From Haloplanus natans DSM 17983 (GTDB lineage: Archaea > Halobacteriota > Halobacteria > Halobacteriales > Haloferacaceae), in the NCBI RefSeq assembly GCF_000427685.1, contig NZ_ATYM01000003.1, positions 310,001 through 374,000 on the forward strand: a stretch of 64,000 nucleotides of DNA, given 5' to 3'. Below are positions 15,209 through 53,319 of this stretch, in pieces. The translations under genes and the position numbers were made by a program. The notes below the pieces were generated by a model. The model was not told where the DNA came from. It searched no databases and was given only the letters and a program-made list of their open reading frames with translations. How positions within the stretch are numbered: the first letter of the stretch is position 1; each line of letters begins with the position of its first letter.

Positions 15209-15300
15209 CGGTGACTTTACTGATAGAATTATAGATCTGAGGGGTAGATTGATCAATAGACAGGTGGCATTTTTTATTCCTCGTCTCACTGTTCCTCTAC

Positions 15301-16110
15301 ATGTATTGGAACGAAGAAGAAGTTGAGGACTACATTCGATACCCGAGTGAGGGAAGTGCCGAGGAACTTGGTTCTCCGATCTATTTCATTGGCCAGAATG
15401 AAATTGAGCGAGATGAGCTGATGGAGGATTTAATCGACGATCTTGAGGAGAAGGGCTACGATTACGCACCGGTTAGACCCTACAATTCACGCGAGTACTA
15501 TGAGGTGGACACGGGAGAATTCCACTCTACCGATGAGGATCAGTACGTTAGGTACAACGAGATAATGCTTTACTGTATTAATATTTTGACCGAGTATCCC
15601 TTTGCGTTAGCTACGCATCCTGATCGAGATTCTTGGCGCATTGTGACGCCTGCCGATTTGAATACAAGGACTGCAAAGGAGTTCTTGTTCACCTATTATG
15701 CGGAGATGGCGAAGGCAGTATCCGATCTCATCAAGGAGGAGTATAGTGTTGATGAGCTTCAAGAAGTCTACGAGGATGCCCGCTCAGGAGGAGGAGCGAT
15801 AGGTAGATGGAGTGACGCTGTCGACGAGAATGTGAATCTTCACCCAGTTGAGTTCATGTCCATCGCAGATCTGAAAGAAGTAGTTCGTGATAATAATACT
15901 CTTCTAGATGAACTGGATTTCTCCTCGAAAACTCAATGTAAGCAGGCGTTCGACACGGTTGAGAAGTTCCGGAACAAGGTGATGCATGGGAACCGAAGCG
16001 TGATCTCCAGTGAAGAGGATGTCGAGGCTCTCGTTGAGTCGCTTGAGATAGCCTGCGACATCGCGGTCAACGCTGGCGGTGATGGTCCGGGATTAGATAT
16101 CCCACCGTGA
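15301..16110 (+). CDS. HEPN-domain protein
   Basis: 269-residue soluble acidic protein. The last 60 residues (TQCKQAFDTVEKFRNKVMHG, then a helix VEALVESLEIACDIA) carry R-N-x-x-x-H, the catalytic R-x4-6-H motif of HEPN ribonucleases, most like the Swt1/RiboL-PSP type found in defence and toxin proteins. The first 200 residues have no recognisable domain. A T-rich TATA-like element (ttttttattcc, 15271-15281) lies about 25 bp before the ATG, suggesting a leaderless transcript. It follows the TraB-like gene on the same strand, has similar AT-rich composition, and ends just before the ISH6-bounded insertion. RNase activity is inferred from the motif alone. Confidence 0.6.
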   Translation: MYWNEEEVEDYIRYPSEGSAEELGSPIYFIGQNEIERDELMEDLIDDLEEKGYDYAPVRPYNSREYYEVDTGEFHSTDEDQYVRYNEIMLYCINILTEYPFALATHPDRDSWRIVTPADLNTRTAKEFLFTYYAEMAKAVSDLIKEEYSVDELQEVYEDARSGGGAIGRWSDAVDENVNLHPVEFMSIADLKEVVRDNNTLLDELDFSSKTQCKQAFDTVEKFRNKVMHGNRSVISSEEDVEALVESLEIACDIAVNAGGDGPGLDIPP

Positions 16111-16123
16111 TTACTTCGGAGGC

Positions 16124-16131
16124 GAATAGTT
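16124..16131. repeat. target-site duplication (left), GAATAGTT
   Basis: These eight bases directly abut the left ISH6 terminal repeat at 16132. The identical octamer directly follows the solo ISH6 terminal repeat at 34634-34641. ISH6-type elements make 8-bp duplications (established knowledge). Confidence 0.85.
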
Positions 16132-17580
16132 GGTCGTGTCGCAAAGCGGTCTAGAGTTTGCCTCTGGTGCTCTCAATTGAGAGGTCACAGCTCATTGCTG
16201 TTTTGGTGGATCGCTGGAGCAGTTCATCGAGGAACGATTGGTAGTACTCTGGATCAGCGTATTTCACCAGCCGAAGTTGGAGTATCGCCTCTAATCCCTC
16301 CGTTGTCCAGCGCATCCACTGGTTCTTGCACCGCTTGCTGACTTCGCCCATCAGTCGTTCGACGGGGTTCGAGGTCCACGGCACCTCGAACCCCTCGATG
16401 GCTGCCTCGGCGAAGGTCACAATCGACGGCAGCCACCGCCGAAGATACCTCGCAGCCTTCTCTGATCCGTACTGCTCTAGCTGCCATGCTGTCTTCTCGA
16501 TACGCTCGGTCGTTCGCGCGATCCGTTCGCGGATCGCCGCGAACTCCCCCTCTGGCCGGTGCTTGGCGACAGAGTTCTTCAGATGGAACACTTCGTCAAT
16601 CACTTCCGAGACAATCTTGTTGCGACGATCTAAGGAGAAGACACCGTCATCCCACAGATTGTAGTCCAGCGTCCGGCCGACATGGACGAGGTCAAGTTGG
16701 TGCTCACGGTTTTCGTCAGTAAAGGCCGTGACAATGCCGCTATCGCCGTCACTGACGACCGTCGCGTCGTCAGTGACTGCGTCGATGTCATCAAGTTCGC
16801 TTGCTGTCTCGTCCCAATCAGCGTTGACCGAGAGATCCAGCAGGGAGCGTGACTCATCGTCGGTGTCTTCGCCGAGCGTGGCTTGGACAGAGTGGTACGA
16901 GCGGTCTTCGTCCTGGCTGTGACACTTCGTGCCGTCAGGAATAACCGCGTTAGCGTCTGTTTCAGCAACACAGTCAGGAAGAAACTGCTTGAGCTTACTG
17001 CCGTACTTTCTCGCGCGGCGGTTGATAGTGGTCGGCGACGGCATCTCTGAGAGGATGCCGTCGCCGTGATCAGCAGCATCACGATAGCTGAGCGAGGTGG
17101 CGAGATCGACACTCTTGGCCGCTATGTCCTGCTGATAGCGGTTTTGCCCGTCGAAGCTGAGAACATCTTCGACGGGCCGGAAGTAGCTGGGTTCGTCGTG
17201 GTCAGCGTCGGTATCCTCGACGTAGTGGAGAGAGAACTCGTGCTCACCGGCGGTTGTGACGGCTGTACGGGTATCGGTTCCAGCTCGTTGGAACCGCTGT
17301 TGACCGTTGCCGTTTGCATGTTTTTCGCCACAGAGCGCCTCGACGCGGCTCGCGTCGAGGCTCTCGACCAGTCCTTCGAGAAGAACTGACTCGACGTTCT
17401 GGTCAGTGATGAACTCAGCCAGCGTGGCCAGCGGTATCGTTTTGTCGTCGTCGATGCTAACGGTCAACCGCACGTCGATTGTGGCGTGCATGGGTCACCT
17501 CTCAGGTTGGACACCAGAGGCGACCCGTTCCTCACGGGAGCCAGTTGCTACTGAACTCTAGAGGACTTTGCGACACGACC
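16132..17580 (-). mobile_element. ISH6-family insertion sequence
   Basis: 1449 bp with inverted ends: left ggtcgtgtcgcaaagcggtc, right (reversed) GGTCGTGTCGCAAAGTCCTC, both followed by TAGAGTT (27 bp, three mismatches). Subterminal GCCTCTGGTG and GAGAGGT are also mirrored. It encodes one intact transposase. It has no target duplication of its own: the left flank gaatagtt differs from the right flank aattaatt. Confidence 0.9.
16151..17491 (-). CDS. ISH6 family transposase
   Basis: 446 residues, the usual size of ISH6 transposases. Recognisable parts are an N-terminal region (TIPLATLAEFITDQNVESVL), a metal-binding-like CGEKHANGNGQQRFQRAG, a helix-turn-helix-like stretch (TSLSYRDAADHGDGILSEMP), then a DDE-type core with Asp in VIPDGTKCH, Asp in ATVVSDGDSGIV, and the late Glu region PWTSNPVERLMGEVSKRCKN. 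Uninterrupted and flanked by good terminal repeats, so it may be active. Confidence 0.9.
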   Translation of the reverse strand: MHATIDVRLTVSIDDDKTIPLATLAEFITDQNVESVLLEGLVESLDASRVEALCGEKHANGNGQQRFQRAGTDTRTAVTTAGEHEFSLHYVEDTDADHDEPSYFRPVEDVLSFDGQNRYQQDIAAKSVDLATSLSYRDAADHGDGILSEMPSPTTINRRARKYGSKLKQFLPDCVAETDANAVIPDGTKCHSQDEDRSYHSVQATLGEDTDDESRSLLDLSVNADWDETASELDDIDAVTDDATVVSDGDSGIVTAFTDENREHQLDLVHVGRTLDYNLWDDGVFSLDRRNKIVSEVIDEVFHLKNSVAKHRPEGEFAAIRERIARTTERIEKTAWQLEQYGSEKAARYLRRWLPSIVTFAEAAIEGFEVPWTSNPVERLMGEVSKRCKNQWMRWTTEGLEAILQLRLVKYADPEYYQSFLDELLQRSTKTAMSCDLSIESTRGKL

Positions 17581-17588
17581 AATTAATT

Positions 17589-18242
17589 CATCAATTATCC
17601 ACCAGTGATCAATGTATGGGCAAAAAGGTCGACTGTATGAGTAATCGTAAGCGAATATTTGAGTGAAGGCGATTAGAAATCACTCACTTCGACTCGATAT
17701 AGTCGTTATAGACGCCATTCTCTGAGGGATCTAATCGAGTTAAGACATAATTCGATTAACTTTATACTCACCGACAGAGATATTGATACATACCGGGTGG
17801 ATCAATCTCTACTAATGCTGAGCGGATTCCGCTCCGGAGGTCATCAAGCTCATTGAAGTACCTGTTTCCGAGTGCCGATCAGAGTTGCCGCCAGCACTCT
17901 TCTGTCGGATTCAGCTTTGCCATTCCAGTTGGAAAATCGTCCGCGAATATGGACTACGTCAAAACCCCCGACCCCCACACAGCCCCCAGATGTCGGACAG
18001 GCAGCTCAGTAGTTCTTTGTGATTCAAGAACTGCTACAAACCCCAGATTCTTTGAAGAGAACGCCCGTATCCATGTGATCACTCACACCGCAGACGAGAA
18101 TCTAGCGAAAGCGTGTGCGCGTATCCCGTCTGAATTCGGATACTACGAAATCGAATCCCGATACGACAGTCCACCACAATCAGTCAAATCTGAATTTCCA
18201 ACTGCCGACCGCCTCACCTGAAACGAAAGACAGGTGCGGTTG
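17589..18242. other. 650-bp region without a convincing gene
   Basis: Between the ISH6 copy and the surface-protein gene. An open frame at 17853-18221 begins with TTG, has an unusual composition and matches nothing I know. A perfect 15-bp palindrome GAGCGGATTCCGCTC is at 17820-17834. The first 200 bp are AT-rich. This is probably degenerate DNA inside the ISH6-bounded unit. Confidence 0.4.
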
Positions 18243-21200
18243 TCACCGGGTCGACTGCTCTTCTTCCTTATTTTTGCGTCGCCGCCAGATCACGAGGAGC
18301 ACCACAATCACCAGGCCGATGATGACCACAATCCACCATGGGAACCCGCTGTCACCCTCGACGGTCAGCGGCACTTCCTGCTCACCAACACCCAGCCTGT
18401 ACTCGCCAGTCGTATCCGGCCTGAAGGTCAGTTCTACCGTTGTGGTATTCCCGCCAGCAATGCTGACTTCCTCGGTTGCGACCACCTCATCGTTGGCTGT
18501 CAGCTCAAATGTCTCATTCGCGCGGGTTTGCCCACGATTCTCGACTGTCGCACTGACTGTGACAGCTTCGCCAACCGTGACCGTATTATCGGCTGCGCCA
18601 GTACCGGTTAGCGATAGGTTACCATCGATGCGCATCACGTCAGCCCCGGTTCCCAGCGCGAATACTGAAAACCCAGGCATCGTGCTTTCGTATTCGTGGA
18701 AGCCACCGCTTTCACCCAGGTAGGCTGTCTCCTGACCGCTCCACTCGCCAGCCTGTTGGCGGTAGAGCGTCACCGCAGTCGGGTCAGCACCGAGTTCGTC
18801 GAGGTATCCGGCTTGGACTTTGAACTTGAATGTGGCACCCCTGATCTCTGTCTCGTTCAGGCTTGTCTCAATCACTGCGTATCCCGCAGCGACTGTTTTC
18901 GTTGACTGCTCGAAGGACGCCGCAGCTGTCTCTATCTCCGCTGAAGAGGTCCCACTGGCAGACCCTTCACCGCTGGCACTGTCCGATCCAGTTACGCGGA
19001 GTTGATCGCTCGGCGTTAGATCAGCCTCATAGGTTGAAACAGACACCGTTGGCTGCGTCGATGTCTCAACATCTACAGTGAGGCTGTCTGCTTGGATTGT
19101 CGGGCTCGTATCTGTCGAATCGGATCCATCGGTTGGGTCTTCATCGGTATCGGTTGTATCTCCCGTTGTATCATCGGCCGTGAGCGTAACTTGCTTGATC
19201 TGTGTCTCTTCTTGGGTGTCTTCAGCTGTGCCGTCACCGCCGCCGGAGCCACTTGATGAATCACTACTATCGTCGTCACTACTATCGTCGTCACTACTAT
19301 CGTCGTCACTACTATCGTCGTCACTACTATCGTCGTCACTACTATCGTCGTCACTACTATCGTCGTCACTACTATCGTCGGTCCGGTTGTCCCCTGCTTC
19401 GACAGTTTCGACACCAGTGTCGATTCTGACAACAGCTGACTCATCACTTGCGCCGTCGTTGCCGTTCGGACCGACTGCACTGTCGACGGTTGCAGTGTAG
19501 TTGCCATCGCTCGATCCTTCGTAGGTCGCGGTATACGTGTATGGACCGCTGCCGCTCTCAGAGAAGTCACTCTCGGTGAGCGTGGCGGATTCGGCGCCGC
19601 TAATCGAGACCGAAATCGTCGAGAGTTGTTTGTCAGAGTCGAAACGGAGTTGAACATCTTGCCCAGTTGGATTGGTCGCGTTGACGTTCGAGATCGATGG
19701 AGCGACAGCGTCAGACGACGACTGCGTCGCCACACCACCGAAGAAATTGAATGTTCCTGCCTGATTTTCGGTGACGTTGATCGTGACATCGGTTAGTGTC
19801 TTCTTCGAATCCACTGCTGACGCAAATCCGAAGATGGCAGGAGCGTCTGCATCCTCGTAATTGTCACTGCCGCCCACGTCTGTGATACGATCCATATCGT
19901 CTTTGAGAGCGTAGCCGGGAGCACTCGGTGGCGTGCCGTACCAGTCGGAAACTGTGAATTCGGACGACGTTTCGCTCGACCCGTCCTGGTACTTGTAGGT
20001 GACTGTGAACTTCGCCGGGCTTCCGGTTCCGGCACCACCAGCCGATGCGATCAGATGAACCGTGCTGTACTTGCCGTCGGAAATACTGATCGTCGTACTC
20101 CCAGTTCCCGGCACCTGCCATGCATTGTTGCCGCTGCTCGTGTGGAAATCTGGCAGATCGATTTTCGGATGCGTGCTCGTGTTTTCGAACACGCCATCAT
20201 CGGGAACACCATCGCCCGAGTTTCCGTTGTTGCTAGCAACTGTGTTCGAGACGAGGGCACGATTACTGCCATCGAAATCTCCGGCCTGGTCGCTTCCATA
20301 CACGACATCAGCGTTGTAGATTCCGGAGAAGTCGAACTGTACCGTGTCGTCAATCCCGGTGATTGACACAGTAATCGTTCCCTGATCGATATCGTTGTCG
20401 TCATCTTCGACCGTGTATGTGAAGCTATCCGTCGCACTCTCGCCGCTGGTGAGTGAATCGTACTGTCCGTTCGGATCGTAGCTCCAACTTCCGTTGTTGT
20501 AGACCGTCACCTGTGCGCCGGAGGAGAGTGTAACTGTCGCGCCAGACGAGAAACTGCTGTCGTTGATTTTCGTGAGCGTGACGCTCTCGCCACCGGAACC
20601 ACTGGCAAGTTCGAGTAGATCAGCACTGTCGCCGTCGGCGACACTTACCGTGCTGTCCTCGTCAGTACTCTGGGAACTGTTATCTGGGGCTGTCGGTGGC
20701 CCATCGATACTGAGGCTGTCCGACTCGCCGGTCGCCCCATCGTTGCTGTTTGAACCGACTGCACTCTCGACCGTTGCAGTGTAGGTTCCGTTACTCGATC
20801 CTTCGTAGGTCGCGGTATAGGTGTACGGACCGCTGCCAGTCTCGCTGAAGTTCGACAGCGAGAGTGTCGCCGATTCGGCACCGCTAACGTTCACCGACAG
20901 CGATTGGAGTTGGCCACTGGCCTCCAGTGAAACCGAGACGTTCTGCGCCGAGGGATTCGCCGTGGTGACGTTGCTGATCGACACTGCAGGACGACTCGCC
21001 GCGGGTGCAGGCGTTTGGCTGTTCGTCTGGAGGAACGGATACGAGAGGAACGTGGAGTTGTCGACCACGTTCCACGTACTCGTGAAGTCGAGGCTCGTGT
21101 TGGTCTTGGCTGAGTCACCTGCGAGTTCCCGAGTCGTCAGTCCGGTGCCACCGGCGGAACTGGACTGGCCGGTCGTCTGGGTGTCCCAGTAGGTGTCTGA

Positions 21201-24200
21201 AACAGTGCCGTTGTTCACGCCGGCAAACCCACCGACGCTGCTGTCGCCGGTGACTCCGCCCGTCGCGTAGGCCTGGGCCACTGATCCGCTGGCTGTGTTG
21301 TTTCCAGCGAAGCCACCAACACGACTGTCGCCTGTGACTGTACCTGTCGTGTAGGAGGTCTTGACAGAACCGTCGTTCTGTCCGACAAATCCGCCGGTGT
21401 CCGTCTCACCGTCAACCGAACCGATTGCAACTGAGTTAGTAACAGTGCTATCGCTGAGCCACCCAACGACTCCGCCGACGTTGCTGCTATTCGATCCGCT
21501 TCCAGTTACGTTGCCGGATGCCGTCGATGTCGTAATGTACCCAGCATCGCTCGTAGCGAGTCCGTCGAGATTGGTCACACCGACGAGACCACCAACGTTG
21601 CTGCTCCCGTTTACCGCTCCACCTGCGGTGGAGTCAGTGACGTTGCCGCTGTTTTGCGCTCCGAGCAGGCCACCGACATGCCTGGCCCCACTGACAGCGC
21701 CGGTTGCAGACGTGTTCGTGATGTCACCGTCACCGTGCAGTCCAACCACTCCACCAACGAAATTGCTGCGTCCGGTCACGTTCCCCATCGCGGAGGAGTC
21801 GGTGATGGTTCTAACAGTTCCATAATTAGAGATGGTATATCCAACGAGACCACCAGCGTAACTCCCGGTCAGACCCGCAACCGCGTTACTGCCGGTTGCA
21901 GTCACGGTCCCCGATGAGAACGCCCCAGTTATATTACCGCTTCCGTGCGCACCGATGAGACCGCCGACTGCAGCCTTCCCGGTCACGTTCCCCGTTGCGC
22001 TGGAGGTAGCGACCGGTCCGTAGCTCTGACCGGCGAGTCCACCCACCGCCATCGCATTCTGTCCGGTCACGTTCCCTGTTGCATTGGAGTCTGTCAGGTT
22101 ACCGTTGCCCTGGTAAAAGCCGACGAGTCCGCCAGCATTCTTCGTTTCGACGGTGACTGATCCCGTCGCAGAGGAGTTTTTCACTGTACCGCTCATGTAG
22201 CCGATCAGGCCACCGACTTTTTCTTGCCCGTCGACCTCACCTGTCGCGTTGGAATCGACGACGCTGACACCAGCGCTATCGTACTGACCGATTTTGCCGG
22301 CCAGGCCGCCGATAGAGGCCCCACTGCCCGAGACGTTCCCTGTCGCGTACGAGTCGATGATACTGCCAGACGTGTATTGAGCGTGGTTCGGCACGTCTTC
22401 GCCGACGAGACCGCCAACCCAGTCCACTCCTGACACGGTTGCCGTCGAGTACGAGTGGGAGATGTTTCCGCCAAAGTTCTTTCCAACGAGACCGCCGACC
22501 AGCTTGTCGTCCTGGGTCGTGACTGTGCCAGCCGCCGACGAGTGTCTCACATCTCCGAAATTCCGTCCAGCCAGACCGCCGAGTTCTGCCTCTACCGTGT
22601 TGTCGTTTTGTGACGTGACGAATATATTCGCCGACGAATTGGTTATCACTCCAGCAGATTGCTGCTCGCCAACGAGACCACCAACCACCAAGGAGCCTGT
22701 AACGTTTCCACTCACAGTGATACCGCTCACAGTTCCGTTGTTCCGACCGACGAGTCCGCCTGCTCGCTGGTAGTCAGCAGTCACACGTCCGGTGATACTC
22801 GAATTCAGTATCGTCCCATCTGAACTGCCGACGAGACCACCGACATATCCATCACCACTTACATTCGCATCTGTGAGAGTGACGTTCGAAACTGTTCCAC
22901 CAGTGCTGATCGACCCGAACAGACCGGCGTGGGAGCGGTCAGAACGGTTGACGGTCAGGTTCGAGATGGTGTGCCCGTTCCCGTCGAAGGTTCCGGTAAA
23001 CGTCGTGCCATCGAACGTGACCGTGGTAGTGTCTGTGTCCCGAGCGATCGGAACGAAGCCATTGTCGCCGTTGGCTGTTGGACTCGCTACGTCGCTGTAT
23101 CCGGCACTGTTCTCATCGAGGTCTGAACCGAGCACATAATCCGCGTCAAGGTCGTTGCGCGTGTTGTTGAGGTCGTACCAGTCACTGATCGTGTACAAGT
23201 CAACTGTGACAGTATCGAACTCACCACTCGCGCCGTCCTTGCCGTTCAAGCCGGCGGCACTCTCGACCGTCGCGGTGTAGTCACCGCCACTCGATCCCAC
23301 GTAGGTCGCGGTGTACGTGTACGGACCGCTGCCACTCTCGGTGAACTTCGCCAGCGAGAGTGTCCCCGATTCGGCACCGCTAACGTTCACCGACAGCGAT
23401 TGGAGTTGGCCACTGGCCTCCAGTGAAACCGAGACGTTCTGCGCCGAGGGATTCGCCGTGGTGACGTTGCTGATCGACACTGCAGGACGACTCGCCGCGG
23501 GTGCAGGCGTTTGGCTGTTGGCCTGCAGGTACGGGTACGAAATGTACGTGGAGTTGTCGATCACAGCCCACGTGTTCGTGAAGTCGAGACTCGTGTTCGT
23601 CTTGGCTGAGTCGCCAGCGAGTTCCCGAGTCGTGAGCCCCGTACCATTGGCGGAACTAGACTGGGTCGTCGTGTTCACGTCCCAGTACGAATCTGTGACT
23701 ATGCTACTGCTCAACCCGACGAGGCCGCCAATATCACTGCCCCCACCAGTTACATTGCCAGCTGCATAGGAGGTAGTCACTGCTGCGCCTTCATGCCTCC
23801 CGATAAGACCGCCGACGTGGTCACCCTCGCCGGTTACATTCCCGGTTGCATAGGAATTGGTCACCTCACCACTTACAATATAGCCAACAAGGCCACCAGT
23901 ATTCTCGCCCGTATTCGACACGCTTCCTGTCGCGTACGATTCCATGATATGGCCGCCATTCGAGAACCGTCCGACGAGGCCACCAAAGTTCCACTCCGAT
24001 GTGCCCGTGTCGTCCACGCTTCCTGTTGCGTACGAGTTCTTGAGGTAATCGCCCCGGAATCGGCCAGCGAGGCCACCAACGCGGTTATCGCCGTTAACTG
24101 ATCCAGTTGCGTGTGAATTGGAGACGTTGCCAGCACCGGACCCAAAGGTCCCGAGAAGGCCGCCGACATACTCGTCGCCAGTGACGGAACCAGTTGCAGT

Positions 24201-26915: not shown

Positions 26916-27073
26916 CTGAATATCTCCGTTAAAAATGACTGCATCGATATGGTACTCACTATCAAACTGGGTTTGCCCTTAACCCTAAACTCGGAACTCA
27001 TCATTTGCACTTCAGAATGAATACATAAAGAACCAGTATGCACATACTAACACATATTGTATAGAATGACTAT
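26916..27073 (-). promoter_or_regulatory. promoter region of the surface-protein gene
   Basis: AT-rich DNA upstream of the ATG at 26915. TATA-like tttatgtattc on the minus strand (about 27016-27026) and the ribosome-binding sequence AACGGAGATATTCAG next to the ATG are visible. The IS6 element lies directly upstream, 166 bp from the start codon, so it could affect expression. Confidence 0.4.
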
Positions 27074-27081
27074 GCGATAAC

Positions 27082-27780
27082 GGTCGTGTCAAGTTAAGCG
27101 TGAAGAGTGAGGCGTGCTGATTTCGTAGTGCTCTATGCCAGAAATCACACGCCTCAGCGATGGTAGCGACTGGATCGAATTAGATTTTGTGGAGCGTCAG
27201 CGGACACCCGAGTTCGCGATGCGGCTCGGTATTCAGATGCACGTGGCTGGACTATCACTTTCGAATACCATCTCGATTCTTGAGAGGTTGGGTGTCGGAC
27301 GCTCTCGAACAGCCGTCCACAACTGGGTGCACAAGGCCGATTTACAGCCCGAAGGCGGTGCGAGCCCGAATCACGTTGCGCTTGACGAAACCGTGATTCG
27401 AATCGACGATCAGCAATACTGGCTGTATGCCGCCATCGATCCCGAAACAAACACATTCCTTCATATTCGGCTCTTTAGCACGTATACGACCGGTCTCACC
27501 GAAATTTTCCTGAGCGAATTACGCGAGAAACACGATGTCGAAACCGCCGTGTTTCTCGTCGACGATGCTCAGTGGCTCAAAACTGCCCTCGACCGACACG
27601 GCCTCGATTGCAGATACGAACTCCATGGCAATCGGAATGCTGTCGAACGTCTATTCAGAGAGGTAAAACGACGAACCTCTTCGTTTTCAAATACGTTCAG
27701 TCACGTGGAGCCGACGACAGCAGAATCGTGGCTCCAAGCTCTCGCCGTCTGGTGGAATCGATGCCAAAGTTAACACGACC
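27082..27780 (+). mobile_element. IS6-family insertion sequence with 8-bp target duplication
   Basis: 699 bp, ends ggtcgtgtcaagttaa and (reversed) ggtcgtgttaactttg. It is flanked on both sides by the identical octamer GCGATAAC (27074-27081 and 27781-27788), as expected for IS6 elements. The exact duplication and intact transposase suggest a recent insertion. Confidence 0.92.
27135..27773 (+). CDS. IS6 family transposase
   Basis: 212 residues, the usual length for haloarchaeal IS6 enzymes. An N-terminal helix-turn-helix (SNTISILERLGVGRSRTAVHNWVHK) precedes a DDE core: Asp in HVALDETVIRI, Asp in AVFLVDDAQWL, and Glu in GNRNAVERLFREVKRRTSSF, where the conserved K/R follows the Glu. It ends SWLQALAVWWNRCQ, as in relatives. 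The start ATG at 27135 follows the left end of the element by 50 bp. Confidence 0.93.
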   Translation: MPEITRLSDGSDWIELDFVERQRTPEFAMRLGIQMHVAGLSLSNTISILERLGVGRSRTAVHNWVHKADLQPEGGASPNHVALDETVIRIDDQQYWLYAAIDPETNTFLHIRLFSTYTTGLTEIFLSELREKHDVETAVFLVDDAQWLKTALDRHGLDCRYELHGNRNAVERLFREVKRRTSSFSNTFSHVEPTTAESWLQALAVWWNRCQS

Positions 27781-27857
27781 GCGATAACTATGCACAGATA
27801 TACATTACCGGAGCATACAGTTTCGACAGAAGCCATTCCAACGGCAGAGGGTGAGCG

Positions 27858-29831
27858 ATGAGTTATTCACTGACTAACGGCGAGCAGCCAGATGCGACTG
27901 CCGAACCCATCCATGTCCTGTTAGTTGACGATGACGCCCAGTGGGCCAAACTTCTCGCCACCGATATTGAACGCGAGGCCGACAGTATCGATGTTACCGT
28001 CACCACAACTGCTCGTGAGTGTCTGGAGACGTTCCAGGACCGCGACGACATCGACTGTCTCATCTCTGACTACCAGATGCCCGGCCAGACAGGCATCGAC
28101 TTACTCGAACAAATCCGTGAGCATCACCCGCAGCTTCCCTTCCTATTGGTGACCAGTCAAGGGAGTGAGACTGTCGCTGCCCGCGCAATTGAGGCTGGCG
28201 TCTCCGACTACCTCGTCAAGGAGTTCGGCGACGAGCAGGTGACAAAATTTGTCGACAAGATCAGACGGGCTGTCACCCACTATCGACTCCAGGATGCTCT
28301 CGAAGAAAGCGAGCAACGCTACCGAACGGTGACCGAACAGAGTCGGGACGCTATCGCAATCCTTCGCTATGAGCAGTTACTGTTCTGCAACGAGCGACTG
28401 GTAGAATTGACTGGCCAAGACCATGAGGATCTCACAGACGAATCGATTGTCGAAACAAGCATCTACGCTGCCGACCGGACGCAGGTCAGAGACGTACTCG
28501 ACAGTTGGTATGCAACAGACGAGCAGTCACAACTCCATGAGACACGAATCGAACGCCCAGATGGAACGATTCGACACTGTGAGTACACTGGCCGCCAACT
28601 TGACTACCAAGGTGAACCAGCAACACTCGTCTCAATCCGAGATGTAACAGAGCGCAAACAGCGTGAACGGGAACTGCAGTGGGAACGCGACCTCAACCGA
28701 ACAATACAGGAAACACTGGTCGAATCACGAACCCGCGAACGACTTGAACAGGATGTGACTGACCAGTTACAGCGCCATGGATACGCCTTGGCGTGGGTCG
28801 CTGAACGAGACAGCGATGTCGTGGTTCCCCGGACTGTGGGCGGTGATAGACGGTATATTGAGGCAATCGACCGAGGTATTGAAGACTGTGGGATGAACTC
28901 TGAACCGGCAGTCTGGGCGATAAAAACCGGTGAGACACGGTTTCTGCAGAACTTTGACGACCGCCCCGCGACTGACTGGGCCGAGATCGCCTCCGGATAC
29001 AATTACCGAAGCGGCGCAGCCCTCCCGCTGGTGTACGACAATATCTCCTACGGGGTACTGGCAGTGTATCACGATCAGAGTGGTCGGTTCGATGCCACTG
29101 AGCAGCGACTGCTCGAAGAGCTAGCAGATACAATCGCGTTTGCGATCCATAGTCAGGAAACACAGGGAGCACTCGCTTCAGACCAGACGGTCGAGGTCAC
29201 TATCCAACTGCAGATGGGATACTATCTCATCGATTTGGCACGCGATGGCGTCTTTGACGCCGAGGCGAGAGTTTCGGGAACCGTATTGGTCGATGAAAAT
29301 ACTGTTATCCAGTACCTCGAAGTTGACGGTGATCCAGAGGACGGTATTCAGGATGCACTCGCTACACATCCGGATATCCAGGATGTGTCACCCATATCTG
29401 AGGAACCACAGGATCGGTTGGAAGTAACTGTGAGTGGCCAGCCCCCGGAAGCGCGACTAGCCTCCCAGGGCGTTGTGGTGAACACAACGTCTGTCAAGAC
29501 GAACGGGGCAACAATCACCTTCGAACTACAGAACAAAAATGACGTTCGTTCGACCGTCCAACCGCTAGAAGACAGGTTCGGGACAGTCACTGTTCAGTCA
29601 ATCATTGAACGCGAACAACAGGCTGACAACAGTCGGCGACAGGTGGGAACAAACACACTCACTGAGAAACAGCTGGCAGCACTCAAAGCAGCCTACTATC
29701 ACGATTACTTCAACCAACCCCGCGGGAGTTCTGCCACTGCTATCGCCGAGTCCCTGGATATTAGTCACTCTACATTTCTCCGGCACCTCCGAGCTGCCCA
29801 AGGCAAACTGTTTAGCGCAAAATTCGGGTAA
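27858..29831 (+). CDS. Bat-like sensor-regulator (REC-PAS-GAF-HTH)
   Basis: 657 residues of the bacterio-opsin-activator type. Order: receiver domain (HVLLVDDDAQW at about 20-30, phospho-acceptor Asp in CLISDYQMPG near 73, Lys in YLVKEFG), PAS domain (about 150-270, ending ATLVSIRDVTERKQ), GAF domain (about 280-435), the Bat-specific beta domain (about 450-590), and a C-terminal HTH_10 (LTEKQLAALKAAYYHDYFN, then ATAIAESLDISHSTFLRHLR). Probably a cytoplasmic DNA-binding regulator taking a phosphate signal and a PAS/GAF ligand. It lies just after the IS6 element and before the membrane kinase at 29931, its likely partner within the ISH6-bounded unit. Confidence 0.88.
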   Translation: MSYSLTNGEQPDATAEPIHVLLVDDDAQWAKLLATDIEREADSIDVTVTTTARECLETFQDRDDIDCLISDYQMPGQTGIDLLEQIREHHPQLPFLLVTSQGSETVAARAIEAGVSDYLVKEFGDEQVTKFVDKIRRAVTHYRLQDALEESEQRYRTVTEQSRDAIAILRYEQLLFCNERLVELTGQDHEDLTDESIVETSIYAADRTQVRDVLDSWYATDEQSQLHETRIERPDGTIRHCEYTGRQLDYQGEPATLVSIRDVTERKQRERELQWERDLNRTIQETLVESRTRERLEQDVTDQLQRHGYALAWVAERDSDVVVPRTVGGDRRYIEAIDRGIEDCGMNSEPAVWAIKTGETRFLQNFDDRPATDWAEIASGYNYRSGAALPLVYDNISYGVLAVYHDQSGRFDATEQRLLEELADTIAFAIHSQETQGALASDQTVEVTIQLQMGYYLIDLARDGVFDAEARVSGTVLVDENTVIQYLEVDGDPEDGIQDALATHPDIQDVSPISEEPQDRLEVTVSGQPPEARLASQGVVVNTTSVKTNGATITFELQNKNDVRSTVQPLEDRFGTVTVQSIIEREQQADNSRRQVGTNTLTEKQLAALKAAYYHDYFNQPRGSSATAIAESLDISHSTFLRHLRAAQGKLFSAKFG

Positions 29832-29930
29832 AATACAAATTTGGAATTTGTTGAAATAAGATGTGCTACCATGTTATAAATCGCATAAAATAAGAGGATA
29901 TTTACATCGTCCCACAACCACACTACAATA

Positions 29931-32093
29931 ATGGGGGCGAGCATAGCAGGATCGTGGATTATCTTTGGATACACCGCTATCCACGTTATTAGCGTCGGGC
30001 TAACGCTTGGTTTGGCAGTGTATACTGCTCGCAACTACTGGACCAAACAACTCGGTCGGGTATTTACTGCGTTGCTTGCGGCGGCAACTATCTGGGCTGC
30101 TGGATCACTGGTCCGATTATTCGTCTCGGATATCGATATCTTCGTCGCCATTACTGCGTTCAAATACATCGGCATTACCGGGACCCCGGTGGTGTTTGTC
30201 CTGTTCGCCCTACTCTACGATGGGAAATCACAGTGGGTCACACGGCCCGTCATCGTCGCTCTGTCTGTGCTACCCGTACTTACTGTTCTGGTCGTTGTGA
30301 CAACACAAATGCATGGCTTGTTCTACAGTGGCTATACGACAACAACGGTAGACGGGGTTGCTATTTTTTCTATAGAGGCTGTTGGACCGTGGTATTGGCT
30401 GTTTGCCATCTTCAGCTGGACACTGATGACCGTTGGGTCAGGCCTGCTTATTCACGCTGGTCTCAAGCGTTCCAAGCCCTACCGGCTACAGTTGCTCGTC
30501 CTCCTGCCTGCTATTGGGATTTCGTGGACCACTAACATCCTCTACGTGGTCTGGAGTTGGCCACATCCTGCTCTCGATCCGACCCCAATCGGATTCGCTG
30601 CAACCAGTCTCCTGCTTGGATACGGGCTGTTTTCCACACAACTTGTCGATATATCCCCCACTGCGCGATCACTGGTGTTTGAGGTAACCGACAACCCAGT
30701 ACTCGTTGTGAATCAAACCGACCGTATCGTCGATGCCAACGATGCGGCCCAACCGCTGTTGTCGGATGATGATATAGTCGGAAACGAACTGACACAAGCT
30801 CTCATTGGCGATCTCGCCGAACAAATTGCGTCCGATTCAGACACTGTCGAAATTGCCACGGGCCAAAGATTGCGCCACTATCGGTATCGAGAGCGATCTG
30901 ACCCGGACAAACTGGATGGACGAGTGCTCATTTTCACCGAAATTACTAAGTTGCAAAACACGCAGGAAGCCACAGAACAGGCCCATGAACAACTTCGTCA
31001 GATCATCGATCTTGTCCCCGACCCACTCTATGTGAAGACACTGGACGATGAGGTACTCCTCTCCAATGCGGCGAATGCCGAGTTACACGGATTGATACCG
31101 GAAACAATGGAAGGAACACGCGAAGAAACAATCGAGTCAGATGTCGAAAATATTGAAAACTTCGATAAATATCAGCAGCGAGAAATTGAGGTGATCGAAA
31201 CCGGCAACCCCTTGACCCATGAAGAGACCCTCGTTGGTCCCAACGGTAACAAACACACGTTCCGAACAACGAGAATTCCATTTAAAACTGCACGAAAAGC
31301 CGAAGACGCGGTTCTGGGCTACGCCCGTGACATAACCGAGATTAAAGAATACGAGCGGGAGCTTGAAGAGGCCAAGCAAAACCTCGAAGAATCACACGAG
31401 CAGATCGAACAGACAAATGAAGAATTAGAGACGCTCAACCGGATTCTCCGTCATGATATCCGTAATGACGTGGTGGTCATGTCCCGGCTGGGAGCAGAAC
31501 TCGAACAACACGTCGACAAAGATGGAGCGGAACTGTTAGAGCAATTGTTGGACCGTGGTGAACACATCAGGAATCTCACGACAGGGCTCCGGGATCTGAT
31601 GCGGACAGTGCTTGATGAGACCTGCGACCTGAGACCGGTGCGACTCGATGCAACTCTTGAATCTGAGGTCAGAGACATCACTCGGAGTTACGAAGATGCC
31701 GTTGTCACCATAGAAGATGTTCCCCGTGTACACGTCCAGGCAAATCAGATGCTGTCATCGGTCTTCCGGAATCTTCTCGAAAACGCCATACTACATAATG
31801 ATAGTGAGATCCCCGAGGTAACTGTGTCGGCACAGGAGCGAACAGACCGAGTTGAGGTCCGGATCAGTGACAACGGCCCGGGTGTGCCTGAAGACATCAG
31901 AGAAGATATCTTCGGAAAGGGTGAGAAGGGACTTGATAGCAAGGGGACGGGAATTGGACTCTATCTCGTCACTCAACTGCTGGATGACTACGGTGGCGAG
32001 GCCTGGATTGAAGACAACGATCCCACTGGGGCTACTTTTGTTGTTGAACTACTCCAGGAGTCGCCGACGGAACGACACTCGGTTGAGGTGTGA
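29931..32093 (+). CDS. 7TM-PAS-PAS histidine kinase
   Basis: 720 residues. The first 230 hold about seven membrane helices (for example IIFGYTAIHVISVGLTLGLAV and FVLFALLYDGKS), the N-terminal 7TM sensor of archaeal kinases. Two PAS domains (about 240-330 and 345-460), a coiled coil rich in Glu and Gln, a dimerisation helix with the phospho-acceptor His in RILRHDIRNDVVV (near residue 505) and an HATPase_c domain follow (N box FRNLLENAILHN, G1 ISDNGPGVPED, G2 GTGIGLYLV). All kinase motifs are intact. The start lies 99 bp after the Bat-like gene in an AT-rich gap with its own likely promoter. Signal unknown; the Bat-like protein or the downstream truncated receiver are candidate partners. Confidence 0.88.
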   Translation: MGASIAGSWIIFGYTAIHVISVGLTLGLAVYTARNYWTKQLGRVFTALLAAATIWAAGSLVRLFVSDIDIFVAITAFKYIGITGTPVVFVLFALLYDGKSQWVTRPVIVALSVLPVLTVLVVVTTQMHGLFYSGYTTTTVDGVAIFSIEAVGPWYWLFAIFSWTLMTVGSGLLIHAGLKRSKPYRLQLLVLLPAIGISWTTNILYVVWSWPHPALDPTPIGFAATSLLLGYGLFSTQLVDISPTARSLVFEVTDNPVLVVNQTDRIVDANDAAQPLLSDDDIVGNELTQALIGDLAEQIASDSDTVEIATGQRLRHYRYRERSDPDKLDGRVLIFTEITKLQNTQEATEQAHEQLRQIIDLVPDPLYVKTLDDEVLLSNAANAELHGLIPETMEGTREETIESDVENIENFDKYQQREIEVIETGNPLTHEETLVGPNGNKHTFRTTRIPFKTARKAEDAVLGYARDITEIKEYERELEEAKQNLEESHEQIEQTNEELETLNRILRHDIRNDVVVMSRLGAELEQHVDKDGAELLEQLLDRGEHIRNLTTGLRDLMRTVLDETCDLRPVRLDATLESEVRDITRSYEDAVVTIEDVPRVHVQANQMLSSVFRNLLENAILHNDSEIPEVTVSAQERTDRVEVRISDNGPGVPEDIREDIFGKGEKGLDSKGTGIGLYLVTQLLDDYGGEAWIEDNDPTGATFVVELLQESPTERHSVEV

Positions 32094-32176
32094 TTCAGTG
32101 CTGTGCGACAACAGATGGGCACATGTGCATACCGAAACTAAGTGGATATGGTACAATAGTATGACCCATTCAGCGG

Positions 32177-32199
32177 TTACACCAAGACATACGGTGTAA
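32177..32199. promoter_or_regulatory. short dyad TTACACC / GGTGTAA
   Basis: Perfect 7-bp arms with a 9-base spacer, about 90 bp upstream of the response-regulator gene. It could be an operator, or a terminator stem for the kinase gene, although no T-run follows. Confidence 0.3.
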
Positions 32200-32289
32200 T
32201 CAAGCTGTACAAACCGAAGATATGCTAGGAGACAACAACGGAACGGTCACCAGAACCGACACACAGGGAGCTCTGTTGAGTGAGAGGGA

Positions 32290-32934
32290 ATGATCTATCA
32301 TCAGCGGTCACCAATCCGTGTTCTCCACGTGGACGATACCCCACGACTCGTCGAAACGGGCAGGCGACAGTTAGAGCAGTACGATGACCGGATTGAAGTC
32401 GACTCCGCACAAAGTGCGGCCGAGGCGCTGAAGCAGCTTGCTGATGAGCAAATAGACTGTCTCATCTCGGATTACTCGATGCCCGGGACAAATGGGGTCG
32501 AATTTCTGCAGACCGTCCGCGAAGAGTGGCCAACATTACCGTTCATCCTCTATACAAGTAGTCAATCTGAAACGATGATAACTGAGGCACTCGCGGCGGG
32601 GATGACCGATTACGTCCAAAAGCGGGGTGGAACGGCGAATCTGAAGGTTCTTGGACACAAAATCGTGAGCGCAGTCGAAGCGCGGCGGCTTTCGCAAACC
32701 CAAAAACAGCTCCTCAGCGGAATAGAAGCAATCGATGTTGGTGTCGGTATCCTCAACAAACACGATCAGGTTGTCTACGCGAACAATTCCTTTCTCAAGT
32801 ATCTTGAGGCCGACGAACAGGGGCTCCGAGGGACACAACTAGCACTACTTCTGGGGTTTAGGCTGGAAACAAGGAGATCTGGGCAGAAACATCGACGAGG
32901 CCGGCGCAACTCGTCGCGATCTGCTCCGGTTTGA
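32290..32934 (+). pseudogene. response regulator-PAS gene cut short at the ISH6 end
   Basis: A receiver domain (IRVLHVDDTPRLVE, phospho-acceptor Asp in CLISDYSMPGTNG, Lys in YVQKRGG) is followed by the first part of a PAS domain (GIEAIDVGVGILNKHDQVVY). Genuine sequence stops at about 32842 (GLRGTQL). Beyond it the frame runs into the left end of the IS701-like element and ends at 32934 with a basic tail of no family meaning. With the IS701-like element removed the gene would abut the solo ISH6 end, so the truncation came first. Relatives continue into more PAS and kinase domains. The receiver could still work. Confidence 0.75.
32839..32842. repeat. CTAG target duplication, left
   Basis: CTAG directly precedes the left end of the IS701-like element; the same four bases follow its right end at 34611-34614. 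It fits the YTAR duplications known for IS701-type elements. Confidence 0.75.
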
Positions 32935-34610
32935 CGAAACTTCAACTCAGATTCGACGCTCCAACTCTCGTTTGAGAGTAACGTGTGCTTCAGGCGGAAA
33001 AACTGGAGGAGAGTGCCACATAGAACCGACGTGTGAGCAGTGCTGCCGCTCACAAGCGGCAGGCACTGCGTTGGCTGCCAGTTTACAGATCAGGGATACG
33101 CCAGTCAGTGAATCCCTGTAACATCTCCTCAGCTGCGTCGGTTGCCGTCTGCCGGTCGAAGTTCAGGTTCTCCATCAGTTGCTGGATCGCCGCTTCGCGG
33201 ACGATCCGCTGCATTACGTCCTTGAAGGACGGTAGGTTGTGTTCAGTCTCCAGACGATGAGTTGCAATGAACGCATGAGCTAACATCACAACCGCAAGAT
33301 GGCGATGGAATCCATCCCAACTTCGTCCTTGGAATTCATCAGCTCCAAGGTGCTGTTTGATATCTTGGTGGAACCGTTCAATGGACCACCGCAGGTGCGT
33401 CCATTGAACCAGTTCTTCGAGCGAAGACTCGTCGAGATCCCAGCAAATCCATGCCTTGAGACTCACCGTTGAGTCATCCTCGTCCTCATCAGTTTTCTCA
33501 ATCAGCAACCAACCGGTTTCTTCGCCAACTTCACAGTCAGCCCTATCGGTAACAACACGTACACGCGTGCGGTAGAACTCTCCGCTCAGCGTTTCTTTCG
33601 TCCCTTTTGCCCAGTCGATGTGTTCCCATTCCAGATCAGTTTCGTTGTCTTCGACCTTGTGAGCGAGATCTTCTGGAGAGAAGATCTCCCCGTCTTCTGA
33701 AATCTCCCAGCGAGTCTCATCGGGATCACCTGATCCCGATTCAGACTCTTCCTCCAGTGGTGTCTCTTCGTCAACGACTGGAAACTTCGATGGGACAAGT
33801 TCCAGCGCGTAGGGACTATCCTGGCTCCGTAGTCTGTGGCGGAGTTTGGGTGATTTGCCGAAATTGCTGTCACCGAGAACACAGCCGAAGTCGAGGCCGC
33901 TGTTAGCGGCCTCTTCGACCAGATCACCGCCGATTTCGTGTTTTGATTGGTACTCAAGATCCTCAGGAATTCCAGCGTTTTCCCGCCGTTGAGCGTACTG
34001 TTGCTGTTGTTGGCTGCTGTCGTAGACGGATGAATCGTCTCCAATCCACTTTTTGGGCGTGAACAGTCGCATTCCAAGTGGCCAACTGACTTGATCTGCG
34101 TTGCGGTGCTGTCCTGGTGAGGCGAGAGTGAGGTTAACGGTCACTTGGCAGTTATCCATTTTCCCGGTTGCACCGCACCATTGATGGCCAACACCGACGC
34201 TGTCGTGTCCTTGTTTGGGGATTCCCATCCCGTCAAGAATAAGCACAGAGGCGGCTCCCTGAGCCGCCTCGGGCACTGTTTGTCGGAGTTGATCCTCGAC
34301 GTTTTCGTACTCCCAGGCGCTCTCCCGGACGAACCGTTCGAGTTTCTCTTGTTTGAGGTCTACCATGCTTGCGATTCCTGCGACTGATTTGTTGCTCCCT
34401 GGCCGGATAAGACCGCGAAAATACTGTGCTCCACGCTGCCATGTCGTCTCCCAATTCGGCCACGAAGAGCCGTCGGCTCTCGTGGCGAAACAGGCTTGAT
34501 ACTTTCTGAGAAACCCTGCCGCATCTCCGTGGTCGTGCGCAAGTTCTTTCATCGCTCTGTTTCTTCAGCCGAGATTATCAGCTTGCCGGATTAACCCCCA
34601 GAAGTAGTGC
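32843..34610 (-). mobile_element. IS701-like insertion sequence
   Basis: 1768 bp. Left end cactacttctggggtttagg and reversed right end CACTACTTCTGGGGGTTAAT share 17 of the first 18 bases; similarity continues for about 8 more. The element is flanked by CTAG on both sides. The target CTAG is the one inside the ISH6 terminal repeat, so this element landed in the right end of the 18.5-kb unit. Confidence 0.88.
33083..34552 (-). CDS. IS701-like DDE transposase
   Basis: 489 residues of the IS701/IS4-type DDE superfamily endonucleases. The N-terminus (HGDAAGFLRKYQACFATRAD) is followed by YFRGLIRPGSNKSVAGIASM, typical of the group. Catalytic candidates are Asp in SVLILDGMGIPKQG, Asp in FGCVLGDSNFGKSP and Glu in HLRWSIERFHQDIKQHLGAD (the Y/H-x-x-R-W-x-IE-x-F signature). 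It is uninterrupted and inside good inverted ends. The start ATG is 58 bp inside the right end. Confidence 0.88.
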   Translation of the reverse strand: MKELAHDHGDAAGFLRKYQACFATRADGSSWPNWETTWQRGAQYFRGLIRPGSNKSVAGIASMVDLKQEKLERFVRESAWEYENVEDQLRQTVPEAAQGAASVLILDGMGIPKQGHDSVGVGHQWCGATGKMDNCQVTVNLTLASPGQHRNADQVSWPLGMRLFTPKKWIGDDSSVYDSSQQQQQYAQRRENAGIPEDLEYQSKHEIGGDLVEEAANSGLDFGCVLGDSNFGKSPKLRHRLRSQDSPYALELVPSKFPVVDEETPLEEESESGSGDPDETRWEISEDGEIFSPEDLAHKVEDNETDLEWEHIDWAKGTKETLSGEFYRTRVRVVTDRADCEVGEETGWLLIEKTDEDEDDSTVSLKAWICWDLDESSLEELVQWTHLRWSIERFHQDIKQHLGADEFQGRSWDGFHRHLAVVMLAHAFIATHRLETEHNLPSFKDVMQRIVREAAIQQLMENLNFDRQTATDAAEEMLQGFTDWRIPDL

Positions 34611-34633
34611 TAGAGGACTTTGCGACACGACCG
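34611..34633. repeat. solo ISH6 right terminal repeat
   Basis: 23 bp identical to the right end of the ISH6 copy at 17558-17580, with no ISH6 body attached. Its first four bases also serve as the CTAG duplication of the IS701-like element. Confidence 0.9.
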
Positions 34634-34641
34634 AATAGTTA
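34634..34641. repeat. target-site duplication (right), GAATAGTT
   Basis: Identical to 16124-16131 and directly adjacent to the solo ISH6 end. Joining the two flanks gives the likely pre-insertion site, about 20 bp after the HEPN gene. Confidence 0.85.
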
Positions 34642-34745
34642 CCAACGGCAAGTTTTAGCTGTTCAGATGTGATCAACTGATGCCTGGGATCAAAAGTGGG
34701 ATATCAGTGCTCATAGAGTAATCCACGCAACCGAGAACTGAATCT

Positions 34746-34769
34746 GCGCCCTGTATTCAGCACGGTCAC
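34746..34769. repeat. IS-end-like scar (reversed)
   Basis: gccctgtattcagcacggtc is the reverse complement of the cttgctgaatacagggc motif at 37564-37580. It lies in the gap downstream of the DUF932-like gene. Confidence 0.35.
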
Positions 34770-34811
34770 CGAAACGTATCACTGAGTGATAGTTCGATAG
34801 GATGCTCAAAA

Positions 34812-36308
34812 TCAGATGTCGTCCAGCTGCTGCTGGATTTGATCGTGGAGTCGCTGAGCCTCCCGGTCCGAGAGAGCGGCCTCGGTGTCGACGTCGATGC
34901 CCGGGATCTCGACGATGTCCTCGAGGGCGTCGCTCAACGTCTGCTGGCCCTCTGCGAGGACCCGTTCGCCCGCGTCTTCGACCTGCCTGTCGTGCTCCTG
35001 CATGGCCAGTTGGATCATCATCGCCGGCGTCCGGAGCAATTCGCCAGCCACCTCGAGATACTCTTGGTATGTGTTCGAGGCCCACGACCCGGTGTACTCC
35101 TCCAGCAGCGCAATTAGCAACGACAGCTGGAGATTGAACACCGTCGGTCGGGACGTGGGATCGGCGAGGCTGGTCGCCCGCTCAGCCGCGACAGCGGCGT
35201 ACGTGTCGGCGATGCCCCAGTACCGGTAGCAGTCGGTAGCCGAGAACGGAAGCACCTCGAAATCGTAGGTGATCGCACGGGCTCGCCGGAGTGTTTCGTC
35301 GACATCGACCAGTCGCGTCTCGACGTCGTCGTAGATCGACGCCCACCACTCGCTGATGGGCACCCGATCGTTCGCGCGCTCGTGATCGGCGTTGGTCGCC
35401 TGTCCGTAGTGCCGGCGGGTGTACCGCTGACCCGTATCCGGAACGATCGTTTCGCTATCCGGGAAGTACAGGATCGGCTTCGCCCACAGCGTCTGGGTTC
35501 CCCGGAAGTCATACCCCGTCTCGAAGCCGCCGTACACGACCAAATCACCGTCTGAATCCGCCGTTTCGGCCTTCCGAACGCGACCGCTCCTGAGGGCGTC
35601 GATATCGTTCTCGTCGTCGATATCGACTGCCTCCTCAGGCGGGCTGACGACCTGCTTGAGGCCGGGACAGACGACGAACAGCTTGAGCAGCCCGCCCCAG
35701 TCGCGGTAGCTCAGACAGCCGAATGCCCCGGTTTCACCCCGTCCCCGGAGTGCAGTGATGATTGGCTGGTAGGCTTCTTGCGGATTGATGATCGAGTAGC
35801 GATCGGAGGCGATCTGCCAGCGGAACCGAACGTCATAGCCCAGCGCACACAGCGCCTTCCGGCGCCGGTCGACGATGTCTTGATGATCCTCGATGGGGAC
35901 GATCAGCTCGGCGTCGGTCCGGGCGGCTAGCTCGTCCAGCGAACGTTCGGCCGTCTGTTCGAGCGCATCCGTATCGAGCCCGTGAACCGACTCGATAGCG
36001 GTGACGTCGACGGCGCCGTCGGCTTCAACGAACTCGTTGGTCGCCCAGAGTTCCCCGGAACTGGCTCGTGGCAGCACCGCGATGGCCTGCTCAAGTGCCG
36101 TCACGCTGTCGTCTCCACACCAGGCTTCCGGTGAACGCTCGTCGTTTCCGGGAACTGCCTCCGCATCGCCGTCGGTGAGTCCGGCGAACCGGAGTGTGTA
36201 TTCTTCGGCGATGAGCGCCGGCACGTGGGCGTGGTCGGCTGCTGGAGTGCCGTCGTTCGTCGAGTCGGTGCTCCGTTCGCGTCGCTGCGTGTGCTGGTCA
36301 GTAGCCAT
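34812..36308 (-). CDS. DUF932-like plasmid protein
   Basis: 498 residues from the ATG at 36308 (MATDQHTQRRERSTD); the frame is open further upstream to 36578, but that part is low-quality and overlaps the divergent gene. The central part (YDVRFRWQIASDRYSIINPQ, EAYQPIITALRG, then GAFGCLSYRDWGGLLKLFVV) resembles the DUF932 family found on plasmids and phages. The C-terminal half is helical with an acidic end. Known members are of unknown function and often neighbour replication or partition genes. It opens the plasmid-like part of the window, just right of the ISH6-bounded unit. Family assignment is tentative. Confidence 0.6.
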   Translation of the reverse strand: MATDQHTQRRERSTDSTNDGTPAADHAHVPALIAEEYTLRFAGLTDGDAEAVPGNDERSPEAWCGDDSVTALEQAIAVLPRASSGELWATNEFVEADGAVDVTAIESVHGLDTDALEQTAERSLDELAARTDAELIVPIEDHQDIVDRRRKALCALGYDVRFRWQIASDRYSIINPQEAYQPIITALRGRGETGAFGCLSYRDWGGLLKLFVVCPGLKQVVSPPEEAVDIDDENDIDALRSGRVRKAETADSDGDLVVYGGFETGYDFRGTQTLWAKPILYFPDSETIVPDTGQRYTRRHYGQATNADHERANDRVPISEWWASIYDDVETRLVDVDETLRRARAITYDFEVLPFSATDCYRYWGIADTYAAVAAERATSLADPTSRPTVFNLQLSLLIALLEEYTGSWASNTYQEYLEVAGELLRTPAMMIQLAMQEHDRQVEDAGERVLAEGQQTLSDALEDIVEIPGIDVDTEAALSDREAQRLHDQIQQQLDDI

Positions 36309-53294: not shown

Positions 53295-53319
53295 ACCACA
53301 ATATCCCAACGCGGGAATC

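Follow-up and report, generated by a model that had tools for sequence, protein, structure and literature searches.

How did a block of about 18.5 kb, carrying a giant surface-protein gene and signalling genes, come to lie between two ends of the insertion sequence (IS) ISH6 in the genome of Haloplanus natans DSM 17983? The block belongs to a window of 64,000 nucleotides (positions 310001-374000 of the 429,065-bp contig C1) in a genome of 3.80 Mb assembled in 8 contigs, and the plasmids that match the flanks best are Haloplanus plasmids. Today, the unit extends from a full ISH6 on the left to a 23-bp ISH6 right end on the right, and the same octamer, GAATAGTT, adjoins both outer ends. The explanation that we hold to be probable, with no great assurance, is that a circular DNA bearing ISH6 fused into a GAATAGTT site and that the resulting unit was later eroded with the participation of an IS701-family element. 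An earlier note, made from the sequence alone, had proposed two routes, namely transposition of the whole segment by ISH6 using the solo end, or homologous integration at ISH6 followed by loss of the second copy. The evidence leans to integration, with IS701 as the agent of the loss, and transposition of the whole segment is the less favoured route. The coordinates of the features are collected in Table 1.

The full element was assigned to the ISH6 family by its 446-aa transposase (NF041731, 392.4 bits; cut-off 240). As described in the accessible part of the source, this family is p-MULT 2 of the prokaryotic Mutator-like DDE transposases, has an archaeal distribution, and duplicates an 8-base AT-rich target with the printed motif AANATNTT (PMC3942029). 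Perfect 8-bp duplications were found at 21 of 33 full ISH6 copies in a first set and at 46 of 76 in an enlarged set; the duplicated targets mostly begin with AA or GA and finish with TT or CT/TC (first set, n = 33). At the locus in question, the AT-rich GAATAGTT lies directly outside the left end of the full ISH6 and directly outside the solo end, as had been claimed; the placement of the octamers in the earlier note was right, and only the end of the right copy had to be corrected, to 34640. A search of both strands located two copies in the window, both on the + strand. Because at least two matches occurred in 13 of 100 shuffles of the window, the count by itself carries little information; the evidence that matters is that each copy adjoins an ISH6 outer end. 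A single target duplication, present once in the empty site, surrounds the whole unit, as in a composite transposon. The solo end has the same orientation as the right end of the full copy, which corresponds to the direct orientation of two ISH6 copies in a fused replicon. A 184-bp element with both ISH6 termini and without a transposase was also observed, in a plasmid of Halobacterium sp. DL1 (105542-105725) and in another genome (G032:C1:1351167-1351350), and it is best read as an ISH6-derived miniature inverted-repeat transposable element (MITE). Since its right end equals the solo end, the lost second ISH6 copy in the window could have been a MITE.

The empty site predicted by the earlier note was found, with the flanks joined at one GAATAGTT (G166; Halorubrum sp. 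48-1-W). When the right flank (34633-34760, 128 bp) was searched against 392 genomes of the order, three matched: the window's own genome, one with a 21-base match, and G166 with 99% identity over all 128 bases. In G166, the counterparts of window positions 14624-16131 and 34632-36263 are contiguous and overlap at one GAATAGTT. The exact 26-base pattern of the joined site occurs in one stretch of the genome contigs, NZ_QMIM01000045.1 of Halorubrum sp. 48-1-W. With the unit omitted, positions 14379-34837 agree with that strain at 1943 of 1950 aligned bases (99.6%), and in the 150-base blocks outside this islet, identity ranges from 85% to 95% to the left and from 88% to 98% to the right (ragged alignment ends set aside). 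Because the islet is more similar than its surroundings, it appears to have moved between genera recently, and the unit would have arrived later or been missing from the copy that moved. The spot, beside VWA/AAA ATPase genes, holds other genes in Haloplanus and in further relatives. Among 60 relatives, the left flank matched in 5 and the right flank in 22, and besides the own genome none had substantial matches of both together. The Haloplanus plasmids NZ_CP098515 and NZ_CP031152 were rejected as empty sites; they lack window positions 14402-16123 and carry other genes there, as a variable spot would.

Why the second ISH6 is only an end was absent from the earlier note. Its terminus is interrupted by an IS701-family element (transposase NF033540, 275.5 bits; cut-off 150), which has CTAG on both sides, a 4-bp target duplication. 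The right-hand CTAG is that of the ISH6 terminus, so that the first 4 bases of the solo end double as the IS701 flank; CTAG is present in both ISH6 termini. It also follows the matching end in all three IS701 homologues that reach that end, and a short homologue (L095) has it at both sides. To judge from these junctions, IS701 entered the second ISH6 at the CTAG of its terminus. Left of IS701, there is no ISH6; the response-regulator gene ends there instead. Because a simple insertion cannot give ISH6 on one side and a truncated gene on the other, either the DNA between the response-regulator CTAG and the ISH6 CTAG would have been lost, or two IS701 copies would have recombined. With the right border trimmed in this manner, 18.5 kb need not be the size on arrival, and the arriving unit may have been larger.

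The inner side of the full ISH6 points to the donor. There, the element adjoins AATTAATT, in agreement with the earlier statement that the inner flank does not match the outer octamer. Window positions 17580-17750 are 96% identical to a stretch of the genome G032 in which AATTAATT is uninterrupted and runs into a TBP gene (PF00352, 195.9 bits). Because of this uninterrupted counterpart, AATTAATT would be donor DNA into which the full ISH6 landed. In a fused replicon, the two inner flanks should be the halves of one donor duplication; in the window unit, one of them has been lost.

The cargo content claimed in the earlier note was borne out: it includes the 2890-aa surface-protein gene and genes for a Bat regulator, a histidine kinase, and a response regulator. 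Genes for a giant GLUG surface protein, a Bat regulator, and a 7TM kinase are also clustered in two other genomes, G188 and G126, in differing gene orders (L142, L143). Since the same genes stand together there, they appear to form a pre-existing module, which likely provides a surface protein with its own sensor control. The earlier note had suggested a search for the same cargo elsewhere with ISH6 ends and a different octamer. No second site with high identity was found among 170 genomes of the family, nor were positions 30800-32842 found at high identity elsewhere among 323 genomes of the order. These searches returned only diverged relatives (64-81%), apart from short stretches at the left cargo edge (88% in G105, 96% in G032), and did not yield the donor of the cargo. 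No relative of the Bat protein was found in the genome contig collection, and exact patterns of the IS701-ISH6 junction and of the joined sites gave no matches in viral contigs.

On the reading that we favour, the starting point would be a circular DNA that carried ISH6, inserted at its donor target AATTAATT, together with the surface-protein and two-component module. At GAATAGTT, this circle would have fused into the replicon, either through homologous recombination with an ISH6 that already resided there or through an ISH6 cointegrate; both routes should produce a direct pair of ISH6 copies flanked on the outside by the 8-bp duplication. At a later time, an IS701-family element lodged in the CTAG at the right-hand ISH6 terminus would have joined in a deletion, by transposition or by IS701-IS701 recombination; the anatomy of the border suggests that the second ISH6 was removed almost entirely, along with the remainder of the response-regulator gene and some donor DNA. 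This succession of events at the right border is our reconstruction. The earlier note had spoken of one insertion event of about 18.5 kb. One target duplication at a once-empty site is supported, and the 18.5-kb insertion size goes beyond the evidence; the octamer is no proof of such an insertion because, by the recombination route, a simple ISH6 insertion would have made the duplication and the cargo would have come separately.

Similar units recur elsewhere. Further ISH6 copies were sought in 18 genomes and records, chosen for the most part because they contain several. The copies are those among the matches listed, the first set took the best two candidates per genome, and genomes beyond the 18 are undersampled. 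Of the 78 pooled copies, 2 failed the end or length limits, and 30 of the remaining 76 had no perfect duplication of their own; the pair counts use these 30. Four of their 12 same-strand, same-contig pairs share an outer octamer, and in 20,000 shuffles with the octamer pool unchanged, a single match turned up about 10% of the time and two matches 0.3% of the time; three or more never occurred. The opposite-strand analysis covers 24 of the 30 (6 had no partner on the same contig): none of the 17 pairs share outer octamers, and 2 of the 17 have the flank exchange expected of inversion, which suggests that ISH6 copies do recombine with each other. Two candidates were rejected as further cases. 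The solo ISH6 end of Halobacterium salinarum pHS2 (L208) has an octamer, AAATTGTT, that differs from the AATTCATT of the neighbouring ISH6, and an inverted ISH6 pair in Halorhabdus tiamatea consists of two simple insertions, each with its own duplication.

In all four recurrent units (Table 1), two IS copies bound the cargo, and in all five, the window unit included, the ISH6 copies are direct. Matches to orc1/cdc6 over the cut-off lie inside each of the three other units searched. The G346 unit holds 5 of 8 such matches in 5.7% of the genome (binomial tail 3e-5) and the G032 unit 2 of 13 in 1.8% (binomial tail 0.02); the Halococcus unit holds 1 of 2, which is no excess for a unit of about a quarter of the record. 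These initiator genes fit plasmid fusion. The G346 segment is likely an integrated plasmid, with signs of internal inversion, and the G032 segment also looks like one. With one octamer kept, the joined target is a continuous frame in three of the four units (332, 756, and 438 aa); the joined G346 frame matched no Pfam family. In the Halococcus unit, a 740-aa frame is open even with both octamers retained, so the evidence there is confined to the intact relatives, whose alignment spans the join. The joined target of G032 is unconvincing: one frame stops 2 codons past the join, and an opposite-strand 162-aa frame is open. In DL31 and Halococcus, the two tested, the alignment with intact relatives runs through the join without a break. 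As G032 and DL31 probably come from the same Antarctic lake system, the four units may not be fully independent.

The clearest of the four cases is the DL31 unit, which interrupts an integrase gene and has AAGAAATC at either side. The 3,540 bp between its ISH6 copies are 99.9% identical to plasmid pHLAC01 of Halorubrum lacusprofundi, and the match ends at both ISH6 inner ends, running one base further by chance. In pHLAC01, the native DNA is uninterrupted at both sides of the matching capsule-gene segment, relative to which the DL31 segment is relocated. The gene next after capA in pHLAC01, PgsC/CapC, is disrupted in DL31, where the second ISH6 cuts it.

Several observations weigh against fusion of a circle. 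The inner octamers of the four other units do not match (3, 6, 5, and 3 of 8), whereas they should agree if the fusing circle had a single untouched ISH6; a prior pop-out between two copies, or later deletions, must therefore be added. A fused replicon would also be expected to carry replication genes, and none was recognised among the seven scanned open reading frames (ORFs) of the window unit or among the annotated genes of the DL31 unit. As for intermediates, neither ISH6 alone at GAATAGTT nor a unit with an intact second ISH6 was found. Moreover, direct orientation in five of five is a small sample, with a chance of 1 in 32 if orientation were a coin toss.

The same inner mismatches are predicted by transposition of the whole unit, which we consider unlikely, though it is the most serious competitor. 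On the left, the transposase would have used the outer end of the full ISH6, and on the right the outer end of a second ISH6 or ISH6 MITE, so that one step moved everything between and made the GAATAGTT duplication, with the IS701 truncation coming earlier or later. The outer ends are indeed a proper inverted pair with 15 identical terminal bases, and the 3.5-kb capsule-gene segment of DL31, native to Halorubrum lacusprofundi, agrees with such a step. Nevertheless, the cargo in the window has a full copy on one side and a 23-bp end, cut by IS701, on the other, and is not bounded by two IS copies. For a composite transposon, the units with replication initiators would be large (60, 111, and 257 kb), and the exclusively direct orientation, together with the lack of shared outer octamers among opposite-strand pairs, favours fusion because recombination and cointegration demand direct repeats and composite transposition does not.

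A double crossover is improbable. Here, the site would have held an ISH6 into whose end IS701 had inserted, and a donor with the order ISH6, cargo, IS701 would have exchanged with it through both elements at once. The present borders, exactly one ISH6 and one IS701, would follow with no deletion required, but two shared elements in the right order are needed, close IS701 relatives are scarce (found at E ≤ 1e-50 in 4 of 392 genomes, including the window's own), and the other four units would be left unexplained. Finally, a chance match between GAATAGTT copies of unrelated insertions, or a contig misjoined at ISH6, is very hard to credit: target preference at 21 intact copies does lift the probability of an independent ISH6 insertion at GAATAGTT to about 4e-4, and the assembly is in 8 contigs, but the joined single-copy empty site makes a chance match implausible and largely refutes this explanation, and the single full ISH6 in the assembly leaves no second full copy to misjoin with, a collapsed repeat aside.

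Table 1. Features of the ISH6-bounded unit, its flanks, and the related units in other haloarchaea (window positions unless another record is named)
Feature	Position or size	Strand	Remark
Left recipient flank, two small ORFs (14477-15208; 15301-16110)	14379..16123	.	Part of the islet 99.6% identical to Halorubrum sp. 48-1-W
Target octamer GAATAGTT, left copy	16124..16131	+	Single copy in empty site
Full ISH6, 1449 bp, transposase ORF 16151-17491	16132..17580	-	Only full copy in genome
Inner octamer AATTAATT, putative donor target of full ISH6	17581..17588	+	Uninterrupted in G032 beside TBP gene
Giant surface protein gene, 2890 aa	18243..26915	-	GLUG repeats, PGF-pre-PGF domain, C-terminal hydrophobic segment
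IS6-family element (27082-27780) with its own 8-bp duplication GCGATAAC each side	27074..27788	+	Simple insertion inside cargo
Bat-like regulator gene	27858..29831	+	Receiver, PAS, GAF, BAT, HTH_10
7TM-PAS histidine kinase gene	29931..32093	+	
Response-regulator gene cut by IS701	32290..32842	+	ORF continues into IS701 to 32934
IS701-family element, 1767 bp, transposase ORF 33083-34552	32843..34609	-	CTAG at 32839-32842 and 34610-34613; only copy in genome
Putative remnant of second, directly repeated ISH6 (right end), 23 bp	34610..34632	+	Identical to right end of full copy
Target octamer GAATAGTT, right copy	34633..34640	+	Single copy in empty site
Right recipient flank in high-identity islet	34641..34837	.	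Alignment to Halorubrum sp. 48-1-W
Unit G346, chromosomal	G346:C1:2709002-2966329, 257 kb		Direct ISH6 copies, shared outer AGAATCTT
Unit G032, chromosomal	60 kb		Direct ISH6 copies, shared outer octamer
Unit of Halococcus dombrowskii plasmid	111 kb		Direct ISH6 copies, shared outer octamer
Unit of halophilic archaeon DL31 plasmid	6.4 kb		Direct ISH6 copies, outer AAGAAATC
CapA segment	pHLAC01 418967-422508; DL31 plasmid 201512-205051		Relocated between ISH6 copies in DL31

Among the neighbouring genes, the name HEPN, given in the earlier note to the left-border gene, could not be confirmed. Padloc detected no clear defence system among the flank genes, the ORF at 15301-16110 giving a weak PDC-M34B match (4.8e-5). 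Elsewhere in the window, a gene for polyphosphate kinase 1 (2353-4968, - strand) lies near one for polyphosphate kinase 2 (6130-7020, + strand). A stretch of 35 bases (53314-53348), where a TnpB-type element ends, has exact matches in Klebsiella plasmids; of the 940 records that matched in that search, 864 reached 99% or more, and all 11 such records among the matches listed match these 35 bases.

Composite transposons and IS26-type translocatable units are built of IS copies around cargo with an outer target duplication, and a circle with one IS can serve as intermediate. The unit described here differs in that the IS is the archaeal ISH6 and the second copy is down to 23 bp. The following comparisons hold for the accessible parts of the papers cited. 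The element shares its transposase family, the 8-base AT-rich duplicated target, and the archaeal distribution with the ISH6 family as printed; that family is said to comprise only ISs, whereas ISH6 pairs here bound cargo from 3.5 kb to replicon size (PMC3942029). In Halorubrum lacusprofundi, a secondary replicon joined the main chromosome at copies of ISHla1, of the ISH3 family, and the rest was lost (PMC10544981). Large secondary-replicon DNA joined at IS copies, with loss of the remainder, is common to both cases; the IS family differs, and the earlier case concerns a laboratory strain. In the present case, the eroded border is marked by IS701 as a third element, and outer target duplications were scored. 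In Halobacterium salinarum 63-R2, a cassette of ISH2 and a partial ISH8A has one common 10-bp duplication (PMC10264941). It is likewise haloarchaeal, with one shared target duplication and one partial element, but measures 842 bp, consists of the two elements themselves, and involves other IS families. A possible ISH4 composite transposon was suggested by the authors of a study on acid-evolved Halobacterium NRC-1 (PMC7193027); it shares with our case the suggested composite insertion of a haloarchaeal IS, but it concerns ISH4, of which only partial sequence was present, and ISH6 does not occur in the accessible part of that paper. ISH6 is named in PMC9208149, the accessible part of which does not use the words composite transposon or cointegrate. 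No literature on ISH6-bounded units was found by title or abstract in the open-licence literature, where most subscription journals are absent. The kind of unit is known; ISH6 as its vehicle and IS701 as its eroder look new.

Large blocks of DNA pass between haloarchaeal genera, and their entry route is seldom traceable. Here, the entry can be read base by base, from the empty site, the outer duplication, the site on the donor side, and the element where the border was trimmed. Any genome with ISH6 can easily be put to the outer-octamer test, which tells fused units from plain insertions; it exposed the 257-kb and 60-kb chromosomal segments with replication initiators. A broader proposal, which we advance only tentatively and consider doubtful, is that ISH6 is a general haloarchaeal vehicle that would bring in whole plasmids or large blocks by the circle route, always with direct copies and a shared outer octamer, and that IS701 could fix such units where they are when it destroys one of the copies; in its effect, ISH6 would be comparable to the translocatable units of IS26. 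Judging from the similar blocks in other archaea, some of which carry replication-initiator genes, ISH6 seems to assist time and again in the movement of large DNA segments.

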